Notes under the pieces: model-generated
Databases searched by the model: none
What the model saw: only the letters and a program-made list of their open reading frames with translations
Told to the model about the DNA's origin: nothing
Made by a program: the position numbers and the translations under genes
NCBI GenBank assembly: GCA_017643585.1
Contig: JAEPND010000009.1
Coordinates: 36,555 to 100,554, forward strand
From: Maricaulis sp.
GTDB taxonomy: Bacteria; Pseudomonadota; Alphaproteobacteria; Caulobacterales; Maricaulaceae
Length of the DNA stretch: 64,000 nucleotides
Direction of reading: 5' to 3'
Part shown: positions 17,479-24,915 of the stretch, one piece after another
Numbering within the stretch: position 1 is the stretch's first letter
Layout of the letters: each line of letters opens with the position of its first letter

Positions 17479-18354
17479 ATGCGTTTTCTGACCGCATTAG
17501 CGCTCACCGCGATCACCTCGGCCAGCGCCTTCGCAACACCGCTCGTCGGACAACCGACGGATCGAGCCCTCGGTTTCCAGCCCGGTGTTACTCCGATCAT
17601 GGAGCAAGTGAACGATTTCCATAATATCCTGTTGTGGATCATCATTCCGATATCCGTCTTTGTGATGGGCCTGCTCGGCTGGATCATCATTCGCTACAAC
17701 AAGAAAGCGAACCCGGTACCGGCCAAGTTCAGCCACAACACGCTGCTCGAGGTTGTCTGGACCGGTATTCCGGTTCTGATCCTTGTCGTGATCTCTTTCT
17801 TCTCGTTCCCGCTGCTGTATCTGCAGGACACGATCCCGAGTGATCCGGATGGCGAGATCCCGCCGGCCGAGTTCACGATCAAGGCTGTCGGCTATCAGTG
17901 GTATTGGGGTTACGAATACCCCGATCACGGTATCGAGGAATTTGCCTCGACGATGATCGCTGACGAGGACCTGCGTCCGGACCAGCCGCGCAATCTGGCT
18001 GTTGACCAGCCGATCGTGATCCCGGTCGACACGACGATCCGCCTGCAGGTGGTCGCTGCCGACGTCATTCACAACTGGGCCATGCCGGCCTTTGGCACCA
18101 AGATGGATGCCATTCCGGGCCGCATCAACGAAGCCTGGTTCCACGTCACCCAGGAAGGCACCTACTACGGTCAGTGCTCTGAACTGTGTGGCCTGCGTCA
18201 TGCCTTCATGCCCATCGAAGTGCATGCCGTCAGCCGTGACGTGTTCGACCGCTGGGTCGAAATGGTTGCCGAGGACCCGTACTCCACGGAAGCCTATCAA
18301 CTGATTGCCGACAATTCCGCAGAGCGCATGACGCGCCTGGCGCAACTGGACTAA
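17479..18354 (+). CDS. ctaC: Cytochrome c oxidase subunit II
   Basis: 291 residues from ATG 17479 with GGGGAAGCC upstream. A signal peptide (MRFLTALALTAITSASAFA) precedes two transmembrane helices (about 45-70 and 90-110) and a periplasmic cupredoxin domain. The CuA ligands are in CSELCGLRHAFM near residue 235, and VGYQWYWGYEY is the aromatic electron-entry patch. It takes electrons from cytochrome c and passes them to heme a in subunit I. It is the first gene of the oxidase operon; ctaD starts 11 bases after it. Confidence 0.97.
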   Translation: MRFLTALALTAITSASAFATPLVGQPTDRALGFQPGVTPIMEQVNDFHNILLWIIIPISVFVMGLLGWIIIRYNKKANPVPAKFSHNTLLEVVWTGIPVLILVVISFFSFPLLYLQDTIPSDPDGEIPPAEFTIKAVGYQWYWGYEYPDHGIEEFASTMIADEDLRPDQPRNLAVDQPIVIPVDTTIRLQVVAADVIHNWAMPAFGTKMDAIPGRINEAWFHVTQEGTYYGQCSELCGLRHAFMPIEVHAVSRDVFDRWVEMVAEDPYSTEAYQLIADNSAERMTRLAQLD

Positions 18355-18362
18355 GGGGCTGA

Positions 18363-20003
<1,641 letters not shown>

Positions 20004-20010
20004 GTAGACC

Positions 20011-21003
20011 TTGAACCAAACGACGAACTCCAGCGTTCATCGCGCAGAGGGCGAGGCTGTTTCAACAGCCTCGCCCCGCGACTATTTTGACTTGATGAAA
20101 CCGCGGGTGATGACGCTGGTCGTTTTCACCGCCTTTGCCGGTCTCATCGCGGCGCCGACGGATGTCGATCCCTTCCTGGCGCTGATCTCGATCATTTCCC
20201 TGGCCATCGGGGCGGGCGCGGCTGGAGCGCTCAACATGGCCTATGACGCCGATATCGACGCCACCATGAAGCGCACGCAAAAGCGCCCGGTGCCGCGCGG
20301 TGCGGTGTCCATCTCCAATGCCTATGGCATGGGCCTGGTGGCTTCCATCCTGTCTGTGCTGATGATGGCCCTGGCGGCCAATTATCTGGCGGCCGGCCTG
20401 CTGGCCTTCTCGATCTTCTTCTATGCCGTCATCTACACGATGATCCTCAAGCGCTCGACGCCGCAGAATATCGTCATTGGTGGTGCGGCCGGTGCCTTTC
20501 CGCCGATGATCGGCTGGGTGATCGCGACCGGCGAGATCTCGCTGGATGCGGTGATCCTGTTCATGATCATCTTCCTGTGGACGCCGCCGCATTCCTGGGC
20601 CCTGGCGCTGTACAAGTCCGGTGACTATGCCGCAGCTAATGTGCCGATGATGCCGGTCGCCAAGGGCGCCAAGTCCACGCGCCTGCAGATCCTTTTGTAT
20701 TCCATCGTGCTGGTGATCTTTGCCGGCGCGCCCGTCCTGACCGGCCTTGGCGGACTGGTCTATGCCGCAACATCGCTGGGCGGTGGCGCGCTCTTCCTGC
20801 TGCTGGCCGTGCGCATCTACAAGTCCCGCGCGGGTGAAGCCGGCTCCGCTGAAGAGGGCGCCCTCTATGCCGTGCGTGCCGGTGACAAGGCCGCGCGTGA
20901 TCTCTTTGCCTTCTCGATCGGCTATCTGACGGTCCTTTTTGCCGCATTGATTGTTGAGCACGCATTTGGTGCTTATTGGGCAGTTCCCGGAGTAAATGGC
21001 TAA
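20011..21003 (+). CDS. ctaB: Protoheme IX farnesyltransferase (heme O synthase)
   Basis: 330 residues, with a TTG start at 20011 behind AGGTAGACC, seven bases after ctaD; no ATG or GTG lies before the conserved DYFDLMKPRVM. The prenyl-diphosphate motif is NMAYDADIDATMKRTQKRPVP, and about nine helices follow. It converts heme B to heme O, the precursor of heme A for subunit I. The stop overlaps the next start (TAATG). Confidence 0.95.
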   Translation: MNQTTNSSVHRAEGEAVSTASPRDYFDLMKPRVMTLVVFTAFAGLIAAPTDVDPFLALISIISLAIGAGAAGALNMAYDADIDATMKRTQKRPVPRGAVSISNAYGMGLVASILSVLMMALAANYLAAGLLAFSIFFYAVIYTMILKRSTPQNIVIGGAAGAFPPMIGWVIATGEISLDAVILFMIIFLWTPPHSWALALYKSGDYAAANVPMMPVAKGAKSTRLQILLYSIVLVIFAGAPVLTGLGGLVYAATSLGGGALFLLLAVRIYKSRAGEAGSAEEGALYAVRAGDKAARDLFAFSIGYLTVLFAALIVEHAFGAYWAVPGVNG

Positions 21004-21284
21004 TGGTCCCCGATAACGGTTCCGACACCCAGAATGATACCGCCACAGAGGTGGACACCGAGACAACCGATCCGGCGCTCGACAGTTCGGGTGCGCCAAC
21101 GTCGGAGAATTTCGGCTTCTACCACCGCGAAGGTCAGCCGTCCGGTGAGAGTGTGGAACTGAACGAGGACCAGATCGCCGCACGCAAGAAGCGCAATGTC
21201 GCAATCGCCTGGAGCCTGGTGGCCTTCATGGTTGTGATATTCCTTGTCACGGTCGCGCGGTTGAGCCAGAACGTGTCCAGCTGA
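21003..21284 (+). CDS. Small single-pass membrane protein of the oxidase operon (CoxF-like)
   Basis: 93 residues. The ATG shares its A with the ctaB stop codon (TAATG), so translation is probably coupled. The first 60 residues are acidic and polar, then a basic patch ARKKRN precedes one helix (VAIAWSLVAFMVVIFLVTVA). Small proteins of this layout sit between ctaB and ctaG in many alphaproteobacterial oxidase operons and are taken as assembly or accessory factors. The CoxF name rests on position and shape rather than a motif. Confidence 0.7.
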   Translation: MVPDNGSDTQNDTATEVDTETTDPALDSSGAPTSENFGFYHREGQPSGESVELNEDQIAARKKRNVAIAWSLVAFMVVIFLVTVARLSQNVSS

Positions 21285-21324: not shown

Positions 21325-22389
21325 ATGCGCATTCAAGATACCTACAACCAGATCGCTGACCGATTTGTCGGGCTGGATCGCAAGTATTGGGTGATCGCCC
21401 TGAGCGTTCTGGTCGGGCTGACGATCATCCAGCAAATACTGTTTTCGATCATGGCCTCAACGGGCGGGCTAGGGGGCTTTGCGGCGCAGGTTTACAGCTT
21501 CGCCGCCGGCTTTACGCGTCAGCCGGTCAGCGTGCCTGTACTCGTGCTCTTGTTGCACAGCGTGTCCACCTTCTGGCTTGGCGAAATCGGTACCCGCTTC
21601 CGGCGTTGTCTTGTGCCCGTAGCGCTGCTGCTGGTGGCGGCCATCCTGGTTGGCTGGATCGCCCGATATTGGCTTTATCAGGGACATACGGGTGCGCTCG
21701 CCTTGGGTGTTCTGACAGATCTTTTGATGCTCATTGCCGTTGCGTTACCGACGATTATCAAAGTGCAACTCCTGTCCCGGGAGAGTTCGGGGCGCCCAAG
21801 CACGGCACTCTGGTGGGAGATGTCGGCACTCGCCTTGCTGGTCATACCTGAGCTGGCTCAGATCCTGTCAATGATCACGCAGCTGGTCATGGGGGCGGGT
21901 TCCGCCGCTCGGTCTGGAGGCGGAGGGGCAAGTTCTGTTCTCGGCGTCGCAGTCATGGCCAGCTGGTATTTCTGGTTCGACCGGATGTGGCGCGTGCGCT
22001 TCAATCGAGTATTGGCGACGCTGCATCTGGCGACAGCGATGGTGGGGCCGCTGACGCTGGCTATTTACGCGATCGGTCTGGACGCCCTCTCGGTCTGGCG
22101 CCGGCTAGAGACTGGAGATCGTTGGTCAATGCCCGCCAGTGGGGATGGCGTGGACTACGCCGCAGTCGTTGCGATGGGCGATCATGTGACGCTCTTTAAC
22201 CTGATCGCGAATGCCCTATTTCTGATCGTGTTCCTCGAAGCCATGGTCAGGAAAATGATGGGCGGAACCGATCCGTCGTATGATGCGGCAACAGCACGCA
22301 GCCTGCGCCGCTATGCCGCTCTTGTATTGTTGGCCGGACTCCTGTTTATGGGCGGGAATTTTATCGTGTATTCATCGCTGACTCTATGA
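21325..22389 (+). CDS. Multi-pass membrane protein resembling the second half of CtaD without metal ligands
   Basis: 354 residues with about eight hydrophobic helices, placed between the CoxF-like gene and ctaG; its stop overlaps the ctaG start (ATGA). By eye it shares landmarks with CtaD of this operon in the same order: HSVSTF (78-83) with HIVSTF (288-293); IAVALPTIIK (137-146) with IAVPTGIK (343-350); WYFWFDRMWRVRFNRVLA (214-231) with [18 protein letters not shown] (424-441); VDYA (276-279) with VDYA (472-475). Gaps between landmarks differ by only 4 to 14 residues. The CuB histidine pair is replaced by non-histidines, and the HFH region by a glycine-rich linker near 190-204. Inference: a degenerate heme-copper oxidase paralogue, perhaps an assembly or structural subunit. 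If wrong, it is a membrane protein of unknown function. Confidence 0.6.
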   Translation: MRIQDTYNQIADRFVGLDRKYWVIALSVLVGLTIIQQILFSIMASTGGLGGFAAQVYSFAAGFTRQPVSVPVLVLLLHSVSTFWLGEIGTRFRRCLVPVALLLVAAILVGWIARYWLYQGHTGALALGVLTDLLMLIAVALPTIIKVQLLSRESSGRPSTALWWEMSALALLVIPELAQILSMITQLVMGAGSAARSGGGGASSVLGVAVMASWYFWFDRMWRVRFNRVLATLHLATAMVGPLTLAIYAIGLDALSVWRRLETGDRWSMPASGDGVDYAAVVAMGDHVTLFNLIANALFLIVFLEAMVRKMMGGTDPSYDAATARSLRRYAALVLLAGLLFMGGNFIVYSSLTL

Positions 22390-22952
22390 TCCGCTTGCCA
22401 CAAGACAAAAACACCCGTGTTGCCGTGATGGCTGCCTTTGGCGCCGTGACCATGGTGGGCGCTGCCTTTGCCGCCGTGCCGCTGTATGACCTGTTCTGCC
22501 GGGTGACCGGTTACGGGGGTACCACGCAGGTTGCCGTGGGTGAGGCGGGCGAGATCCTTGACCGTCAGGTGACGGTCTATTTCGACGCCAATACTGAACG
22601 CGACATGCCGTGGAGTTTCGAGCCGCTGCAGCGCTCGCTGACCGTCCAGGTCGGGGAGAGCGGGCTGGCCTATTACCGGGCCACCAACACGTCGGACCAG
22701 CCGGTCACCGGTGTCGCCTCTTATAATGTCGCGCCCTACAAGGCTGCGCCCTATTTTTCCAAGATCCAGTGTTTCTGCTTTACCGAGCAGACCCTGGCAC
22801 CGGGCGAAAGCATGGACATGCCGGTCCTGTTCTTCGTCGACCCTCTCATGGATGGGGAGCGCCGCATGGATGATGTGACGTCCTTCACCCTCTCTTACAC
22901 CTTCTTTGAAACCGACGGTGCTGCGTCCTCTTCCAGCGACGCCGCGCCTTAG
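22386..22952 (+). CDS. ctaG: Cytochrome c oxidase assembly protein CtaG (Cox11 family)
   Basis: 188 residues. One N-terminal helix (VAVMAAFGAVTMVGAAFAAV) anchors a periplasmic immunoglobulin-like domain with the copper-binding CFCF motif in KIQCFCFTEQTLAPGE and the family segment VPLYDLFCRVTGYGGTT. It delivers copper to the CuB site of subunit I. Its ATG overlaps the stop of the preceding CtaD-like gene, so translation of the two is probably linked. Confidence 0.97.
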   Translation: MIRLPQDKNTRVAVMAAFGAVTMVGAAFAAVPLYDLFCRVTGYGGTTQVAVGEAGEILDRQVTVYFDANTERDMPWSFEPLQRSLTVQVGESGLAYYRATNTSDQPVTGVASYNVAPYKAAPYFSKIQCFCFTEQTLAPGESMDMPVLFFVDPLMDGERRMDDVTSFTLSYTFFETDGAASSSSDAAP

Positions 22953-23022: not shown

Positions 23023-23874
23023 ATGGCTGGGCAGGCTGTTAAGCACGACTACCACCTTGTGGACCCGTCACCATGGCCGTTTGTCGGCTCGTTGGGTGCC
23101 TTTTTGATGGCCGTTGGCGCGGTCGCCTGGATGAAGGGACTGGTGGACGCTGACCACTGGCTGGCCTTTTTCTATGGCCCGAACGCCGCTGCCGGCTTCT
23201 TCATCGGCCTTCTCATCGTGCTGATCACGATGTTTGGCTGGTGGGCAGATATTATCAAGGAATCGCGTGCGGGTGACCACACGCCGGTCGTTGATATTCA
23301 CCTTCGCTACGGCATGATCATGTTCATCGCTTCTGAAGTGATGTTCTTCGTGGCGTGGTTCTGGGCCTTCTTCGAATACGCGATCTTCCACGAGGTCCGC
23401 CTTGATCCGGGCCTGGCCAGCTGGCCGCCGGCAGGTGTCGAGACCTTCAACCCGTGGCACATCCCGCTGATGAACACGCTGATCCTGCTGCTGTCCGGCA
23501 CCACCGTGACCTGGGGTCACCACGCGCTGCAGCACGGCGATCGCAAGGGCGCCAAGCTGGGCCTGCTGTTCACCGTGATCCTCGGCCTCTGCTTCACCGC
23601 ACTGCAGGTCTACGAGTATCAGGAAGCACACTTTGCCTTCTCCATGGCCGATGGCGGCAATCTCTATGGTTCCACCTTCTACATGGCGACCGGCTTCCAC
23701 GGTGCGCACGTGGTCATCGGTACCATCTTCCTCGCTGTCTGCCTGTTGCGCCTGATGGCTGGCCACTTCACACCGGAGAAGCATTTCGGTCTGGAAGCGG
23801 CGGCCTGGTACTGGCACTTCGTTGACGTTGTCTGGCTGTTCCTGTTCGCCTTCGTCTACGTCGTCTACCAATAA
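23023..23874 (+). CDS. ctaE: Cytochrome c oxidase subunit III
   Basis: 283 residues with seven membrane helices, preceded by CAGGAGATTCGCG. Conserved segments include [20 protein letters not shown] at the N-terminus, [18 protein letters not shown] with the carboxylate helix, and [20 protein letters not shown] at the C-terminus. It stabilises proton uptake by subunit I. Confidence 0.97.
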
Positions 23875-23885
23875 GGCGAGACCAC

Positions 23886-24248
23886 ATGGATAATCCCTCT
23901 CCGTTTTCGACGGGCTTTCACGGCCGGTGTCCGAAATGCGGAGAGGGCGCCATGTTCAAGGGACTGCTCGAAATAGCGCCGCGGTGTGATGCCTGCGGCG
24001 TTAGTTTTGAGGGGGCTGATGTTGGTGACGGCGCCTCGGTGTTTGCGCTCTTCATCGTCGGCTTCATCGCCATGGTGGCCTACCTGCTGGTCGCCGTGAC
24101 GTTCAACCATCCCCCGCTCTGGGTTCACGCCCTGATCCAGCTGCCCCTGATCCCGATCGCGACGATCGCCTGTATCCGCCCGCTCAAGGGCGTGTTGTTT
24201 GCCCTCCAGTTCAAGCACGACGCCCAAGAGGCCCGTCTGGACGATTAG
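23886..24248 (+). CDS. DUF983 zinc-ribbon membrane protein
   Basis: 120 residues. A CPKC...CDAC zinc-ribbon-like N-terminus (GRCPKCGEGAMFKGLL, PRCDACGVSF) is followed by two membrane helices and a short polar tail. DUF983 proteins are regularly found between ctaE and surf1 in alphaproteobacterial oxidase operons, as here, which suggests a role in oxidase biogenesis, though no activity is established. It begins 11 bases after ctaE. Confidence 0.88.
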   Translation: MDNPSPFSTGFHGRCPKCGEGAMFKGLLEIAPRCDACGVSFEGADVGDGASVFALFIVGFIAMVAYLLVAVTFNHPPLWVHALIQLPLIPIATIACIRPLKGVLFALQFKHDAQEARLDD

Positions 24249-24261
24249 CCGGAGACCCGAT

Positions 24262-24915
24262 TTGCGCCGCTTCCCTGTCATCCTGACCGGCTTCACGCTC
24301 GCCTCGCTGGCCCTGCTGGTGTCACTGGGTACCTGGCAGATGCAGCGCATGGCCTGGAAGCGCGATCTGATTGCCCAGTATGAGGCACGCGGCGAGGCGG
24401 TGAGTTTCCAGGCGGCCCTGTGCGAGATGGGCGAGGGGTTTTTCAGCCCGCGCGTGTCCGGACCTGCGCCGCTGAGCGGCGAGGAATTGCGGTTCTACGT
24501 TTTGCGCGGTGAGCCTGGCTGGGTGCGCCTCGGGGTGCTGCAGGTCGAGGATTGCGACAGTGGTGAAGACCGGTTTGTCCTGATCGAGAGCGGGTTTGAA
24601 AACCTGGCCGGCGAGCGTGTCTCGCGCCCGGCCGTGTGGAGAGCGGAAGCTGCACCGGCTGCAGGAATGTTCACACCCGGCAACGAAGCAGATACCAATC
24701 AGTGGTATAGCTTTGATCAGATCGAAATGGCGCGTGCCCTGAATATCGCTCCCGACCAGCTTTTGCCGGTCTGGCTGCGAGAGGATAGCGGCATGCCGGC
24801 CAGTCTGAGCCTGACCCCGCCGTCCAAGCATTTTGGATATGCGCTGACCTGGTATGGCCTGGCCCTGGCGCTGATGGCGGTCTATGCCGCGATGCTGTTC
24901 AAGCGTCGCCAATAA
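24262..24915 (+). CDS. surf1: SURF1 family oxidase assembly factor
   Basis: 217 residues from a TTG at 24262, which has GGAGACCCGAT upstream and lies 13 bases past the DUF983 stop; the frame is open earlier but that would overlap DUF983. Two helices flank a periplasmic domain: the N-terminal one leads into SLGTWQMQRMAWK (the LGxWQxxR signature), and the C-terminal one is YALTWYGLALALMAVYAAML (HFGYALTWYG is typical). SURF1 helps insert heme A into subunit I. It is the last oxidase gene of the operon. Confidence 0.93.
   Translation: MRRFPVILTGFTLASLALLVSLGTWQMQRMAWKRDLIAQYEARGEAVSFQAALCEMGEGFFSPRVSGPAPLSGEELRFYVLRGEPGWVRLGVLQVEDCDSGEDRFVLIESGFENLAGERVSRPAVWRAEAAPAAGMFTPGNEADTNQWYSFDQIEMARALNIAPDQLLPVWLREDSGMPASLSLTPPSKHFGYALTWYGLALALMAVYAAMLFKRRQ

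Follow-up and report, generated by a model that had tools for sequence, protein, structure and literature searches.

Why would an operon that encodes an intact subunit I of the aa3 oxidase also encode a second protein that resembles subunit I but has none of its heme and copper ligands? The question is raised by a 64,000-nucleotide stretch of DNA from Maricaulis sp. (the window), in which a gene of 354 codons, here called X, lies between a coxF-like gene and ctaG. A sequence-only reading of this DNA had described the product as a relative of CtaD free of metal ligands, which might act in the assembly of CtaD or as an extra structural subunit.

The oxidase operon and the resemblance of X to CtaD

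The operon has the order ctaC, ctaD, ctaB, coxF-like, X, ctaG, ctaE, DUF983 and SURF1, and those of its genes given with coordinates below are on the plus strand. ctaC (17479..18354; PF00116 6e-49, PF02790 5e-24) encodes subunit II and ctaD (18366..20003; PF00115 1.1e-160) encodes an intact subunit I, in whose sequence HPEVY, HH and HFH are all present. ctaB (20011..21003; PF01040 7e-59) belongs to the UbiA family (heme O synthase) and is followed by an open reading frame for a small membrane protein (21003..21284), whose ATG at 21003 was picked since it overlaps the ctaB stop; the name coxF is that of the earlier reading, and a Pfam search put the product in no family. X itself (21325..22389; protein P0001, 354 amino acids) is an intact gene, and the coordinates, length and start first assigned to it are correct. 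ctaG/cox11 (22386..22952; PF04442 2e-57) starts at 22386 within the X stop (CT-ATGA), the four bases ATGA being common to both genes, which agrees with the translational coupling proposed for them; the overlap is found in both genomes that have X, namely that of the window and that of another Maricaulis (G064). Further downstream are ctaE (23023..23874; PF00510 1e-87), which encodes subunit III, and the SURF1 gene (24199..24915; an open reading frame with PF02104 2e-20), for which the start codon is uncertain and the first possible start is given. The aa3 assembly factors CtaG/Cox11 and SURF1 are encoded in the same operon as X but differ from it in belonging to other Pfam families.

The resemblance between X and CtaD very probably reflects homology and not chance. 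The four landmarks on which the proposal was based are all present and in order. The best of them, X 214-231 against CtaD 424-441, again gave 8 of 18 residues identical and 8 conservative when recounted; PTxIK (X 142-146, CtaD 346-350) and VDYA (X 276-279, CtaD 472-475) stand likewise, while HxVSTF (X 78-83, CtaD 288-293) is a weak landmark alone, as the orthologue of X in G064 has IASF. BLASTP aligns X with the window CtaD at E 5e-6 (X 209-323, CtaD 419-523), and the pairwise similarity is concentrated in these 115 residues; the orthologue alone matches CtaD at E 2e-4 over just 22 residues. In Smith-Waterman comparisons with CtaD, X gave a z score of 6.2 and the orthologue 6.0, and in each case none of 1000 membrane-aware shuffles, in which membrane and non-membrane composition were both preserved, was as good. 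Profile-profile comparison, suggested earlier as a check, aligned the X pair with 13 CtaD sequences over X 138-323 (hhalign probability 94.5%, E 7.6e-8), both profiles being of low diversity.

Profile searches were run in both directions against 878 open frames, collected at 100 loci as well as in the window; this set is rich in CtaD and so favours such counts. The CtaD profile found X at E 2.2e-7 and the orthologue at 3.2e-6, with the next non-CtaD frame at 0.24. The X profile gave 94 rows (6 X, 69 CtaD and 19 other), with 50 CtaD rows, representing 43 distinct sequences, ahead of the first other frame at E 0.036. At a threshold of E 0.001, a search of the window's own genome with X returned X only and not CtaD, and a search of 59 family genomes returned X and five other places, all five inside CtaD; 53 of the 59 had no match in this whole-genome search. 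Within the genus and at E up to 1, 14 places were found, comprising X, the orthologue, nine in CtaD and three others (E 0.07-0.22).

Confident placement of X in an unrelated family had been named as one of two findings that would speak against kinship with CtaD, the other being a predicted structure without overlap to CtaD. The Pfam and NCBIfam searches put X in no family, with no Pfam match up to E 10, COX1 included, and none in NCBIfam; the orthologue likewise has no PF00115 (COX1) match in Pfam, and a PDB sequence search with X gave no match. If X were unrelated to CtaD, the similarity would be a convergence between membrane proteins. The missing family match, the concentration of the pairwise similarity in 115 residues and two non-CtaD frames (0.036 and 0.06) that the X profile ranked just under weak CtaD rows are all points that such a view could use, but the membrane-aware shuffles, the reciprocal profiles, hhalign and the occurrence of a CtaD paralogue in the same place in a third Maricaulis (G009, see below) make convergence very improbable.

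Missing ligands, retained helices and a putative role

In a MAFFT alignment of X, the orthologue, the G009 protein and 13 CtaD sequences, X is collinear with CtaD over a region that begins at about helix V and extends to helix XII, at 22-25% identity. The helix numbers and ligand roles assigned to these positions are those that we take to hold for COX1. None of the six CtaD histidine ligands has a histidine counterpart in X, the orthologue or the G009 protein; four of the positions fall in gaps in X and in the orthologue, and one does in the G009 protein. The loss of the ligands noted from the sequence is thus confirmed, and the glycine-rich linker described with it corresponds to a short glycine-rich piece (21910..21936) that faces a 12-residue stretch of CtaD. 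Helices I to VI had all been thought missing, and this is correct for I-IV; V and VI, by contrast, probably have counterparts in X, HxVSTF lying at the end of helix VI. Also kept are the helix VIII lysine (PTIIK at 21748..21762, the counterpart of PTGIK in CtaD, and PTVLK in the orthologue), which the G009 protein has lost, VDY, and the end of helix X with the X-XI loop, which together form the best-conserved block of X (residues 214-231; 21964..22017). X differs from CtaD in its N-terminal segment, which has no clear CtaD counterpart, and in one extra C-terminal hydrophobic helix (22303..22377; alignment and hydropathy count) past the counterpart of helix XII.

A crude hydropathy count gives nine helices for the orthologue, which would place 20 K+R toward the cytoplasm and 7 outside if the N-terminus is inside, and nine for the G009 protein, both fewer than the twelve core helices. 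The method is a coarse one, giving 10 segments for X and 13 for CtaD, so that nine helices in X are taken from the alignment. Structure models of X were poor. The AlphaFold model made from X and its orthologue alone had a pLDDT of 45, and Foldseek found no significant match to it and no oxidase among the best 50 of 71 matches. When 13 CtaD rows and the G009 row were added, the pLDDT was 59.5 and the two highest ranks in Foldseek were ba3 oxidase subunit I (probability 0.94 and 0.89, TM 0.45 and 0.42, E 0.27 and 0.35). This result is counted as no evidence, because none of the 281 matches was significant and the input alignment leans to CtaD.

Based on these comparisons, X may have begun as a ctaD copy inserted into the aa3 oxidase operon at the coxF-ctaG junction. 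That copy would have lost helices I-IV at its N-terminal end as well as all the ligands of heme and CuB, and the C-terminal helix would be a gain of the window's lineage. Expression of X is probably from the operon transcript, with coupling to ctaG, and the product probably lies in the membrane in the same orientation as CtaD. Because the residues that hold the redox centres are missing, X is predicted not to be an oxidase and to be unable to take up heme a, heme a3 and CuB the way subunit I does. As a look-alike of subunit I it could hold a partner that normally meets CtaD (CtaG, CoxF, CtaB, CtaC or CtaE), and would then most likely be an assembly scaffold or an accessory subunit of the aa3 oxidase. 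To stand in for CtaD toward such a partner would be the simplest useful role for a protein that has the operon, the coupling and probably the membrane surfaces in common with CtaD. The interpretation preferred here, tentatively and with slightly less than even confidence, is that X is a degenerate, non-catalytic second subunit I, a homologue of CtaD comprising helices V-XII and a new C-terminal helix, that would serve aa3 biogenesis or structure.

Alternatively, X could be a membrane protein of CtaD descent that no longer has a part in the oxidase and acts elsewhere, for instance as a sensor or a transporter, and is merely carried in the operon. Such a protein might be expected to diverge fast, as X does, and the extra C-terminal helix and the N-terminal segment without a clear CtaD counterpart would fit it as well; the position in the cta operon and the coupling in both X genomes, with a gene in the same place in G009, argue otherwise, and a role outside the oxidase is considered rather improbable.

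To our knowledge, no aa3 assembly factor has been derived from the subunit that it serves. A ligand-free relative of COX1 is nevertheless known in Acetobacter, reportedly from the work of Matsutani in 2014, the title of which is said to concern a cytochrome c oxidase replaced by ubiquinol oxidase. In PMC10715153, this COX1-like protein is described as being without all conserved metal-binding residues and kept in a cluster with ctaB, and Degli Esposti and colleagues propose that it may have a structural role in stabilising CtaB. The sequence-only reading knew of no described factor of this kind, and here it needs correction, a ligand-free COX1-like protein being in print (PMC10715153). X is likewise COX1-like, ligand-free and clustered with ctaB, as far as the two can be compared by description, but the Maricaulis operon differs in that it also has intact CtaD, CtaG, CtaE and SURF1. 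What appears to be new is the occurrence of such a copy together with an intact ctaD within one operon, an arrangement that a literature search did not find. CtaG binds subunit I early in assembly according to the available text of PMC9145763, and neither there nor in that of PMC4013037 is such a gene named.

The position between coxF and ctaG in other genomes

A survey of related genomes had been proposed, and it showed such a gene in a minority of the Maricaulis loci read and in none of those read outside the genus. What precedes ctaG was determined at 16 Maricaulis loci, including the window (no ctaG was obtained from three of the 19 genomes of the genus). At thirteen of them nothing is encoded between coxF and ctaG, and in the remaining three of the 16 the position holds X (the window and G064) or a CtaD paralogue (G009). 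The G064 gene (L018 5995-7068) is the one clear orthologue of X, 50% identical and in the same place. G038 has no gene there, though its CtaD is the sister of the G009 CtaD. In all 40 loci sampled from 109 other family genomes with a ctaG match, ctaG follows coxF, or ctaB in the 10 loci where coxF was undetected, too closely for a 1-kb gene to fit in. Across 385 class genomes and 398 phylum genomes, the X profile matched only the window's own genome, a wider contig search for orthologues gave a single Maricaulis locus (from the MAG that holds the G064 orthologue), and a plasmid search gave none. This patchy presence points to a genus that for the most part manages without X.

Two of the loci differ in their spacing. 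G056 (L021), the nearest relative without X by CtaG identity, has a 117-base spacer between coxF and ctaG, which overlap or nearly do so in most Maricaulis loci read; the spacer was considered as a deletion scar of X and rejected, having no similarity to it (337 and 219 of 500 shuffles were as good). At L061 (G012), one of the 40 loci outside the genus, ctaB and coxF are separated by two unrelated genes, whose products are presumably a TPR-like and a DUF885-like protein.

The G009 gene (minus strand; L033 2135-3322, G009:C6:523183-524367) encodes a protein of 395 amino acids (P0002) and is certainly a ligand-free copy of ctaD by sequence comparison. The protein matches PF00115 at E 7.6e-27 (94.7 bits, with a cut-off of 34.8), CtaD by BLASTP at 2e-43 (32% over 374 amino acids) and oxidases in the PDB at 2e-28. 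It aligns from CtaD 159 on, over helices IV-XII, the region of helix II being absent, and all ligands in the aligned part are replaced (HPEVY by QWEVS, HH by SG and HFH by QVQ). Like X it lies between coxF and ctaG, is derived from CtaD and lacks the ligands; unlike X it is much closer to CtaD, has no extra C-terminal helix and has lost K350. Since the G009 gene, the stronger case of the two and the best evidence on the origin of X, is certainly CtaD-derived, X is very likely to be so too, and looks like a further-diverged copy of this type, of whose decay the G009 gene would show an earlier stage.

The direct match between the two is weak: BLASTP gives 0.023 for X and the G009 protein, with a z score of 2.7 (13 of 1000 shuffles as good), and the orthologue gives a z score of 1.2 (135 of 1000). 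K350, W424 and N437 of CtaD are kept in the X pair only, and D400 of HDTYY in G009 only. Because of the weak match and the different residues kept, the two genes need not share one duplication, and they would be sisters of long standing or else would go back to ctaD copies captured separately in the same place, an event compatible with the other explanations. Separate captures would account for both observations and are a possibility to be taken seriously, if the less probable course; the position is identical in G009 and the window pair, and in a tree of 33 sequences and 276 columns X, the orthologue and the G009 protein group together (ultrafast bootstrap 90), although on very long branches that may cause the grouping. 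When the G009 gene was used to search for relatives closer than CtaD, 150 genomes of the order returned G009 only and 385 genomes of the class returned none, in a sample that does not contain G009 and so has no positive control. Second, distant matches of the G009 protein were seen in frames of 862-1011 amino acids in G145, G153, G173 and G187.

Rates of evolution and constraint on X

Pairwise comparison of the window with the genome of the X orthologue shows that ctaD, ctaB, ctaG and ctaE are 93-97% identical (dN/dS 0.05-0.10) and SURF1 80% (0.18), whereas the coxF-like gene evolves fast beside its near-identical neighbours (75%, 0.40) and X is 50% identical, about half the figure for the first four genes, with a dN/dS of 0.44, a value also expected of a poorly constrained gene. 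As pN is below pS in all seven windows of 50 codons, X would appear to be a fast-evolving gene under some loose constraint.

The main rival to a role in the oxidase is that X and the G009 gene are functionless, decaying duplicates of ctaD, with frames still open but heading for loss. It would explain the patchy presence (3 of 16 Maricaulis loci, with absence in G038), the divergence of X beside neighbours that are 93-97% identical, and the low constraint. Simple decay is less easily reconciled with pN below pS in seven of seven windows at such divergence, with frames that are open in three genomes (X in two, the G009 gene in one), with the ATGA coupling in both X genomes or with blocks of near-identity between X and its orthologue such as WYFWFDRMWRVRFNRVL, and is judged unlikely. 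Returning to a role in the oxidase, a dead copy of subunit I might have become, in Maricaulis, a pseudoenzyme devoted to assembling a working aa3 oxidase or built into it as one more structural subunit. It would have been made from a ctaD copy and still be diverging, and two stages of it (G009 and the window pair) would be seen in one genus; this fuller proposal is put forward as a conjecture more doubtful than not.

With an intact subunit I and the CuB chaperone encoded next to it, and with near relatives in the genus lacking it, a ligand-free subunit I of this kind lends itself to a simple test by gene removal. Should X act on the oxidase, a respiratory complex would have a pseudoenzyme for a partner, of which we know few cases, and X would indicate the faces of subunit I that assembly factors hold.

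The dS of X is 1.05, which is 1.4 to 3.8 times that of its operon neighbours (0.28-0.76), yet only 0.18 in codons 301-350. This mosaic suggests, without proof, that recombination exchanges alleles of X and that there are further alleles.
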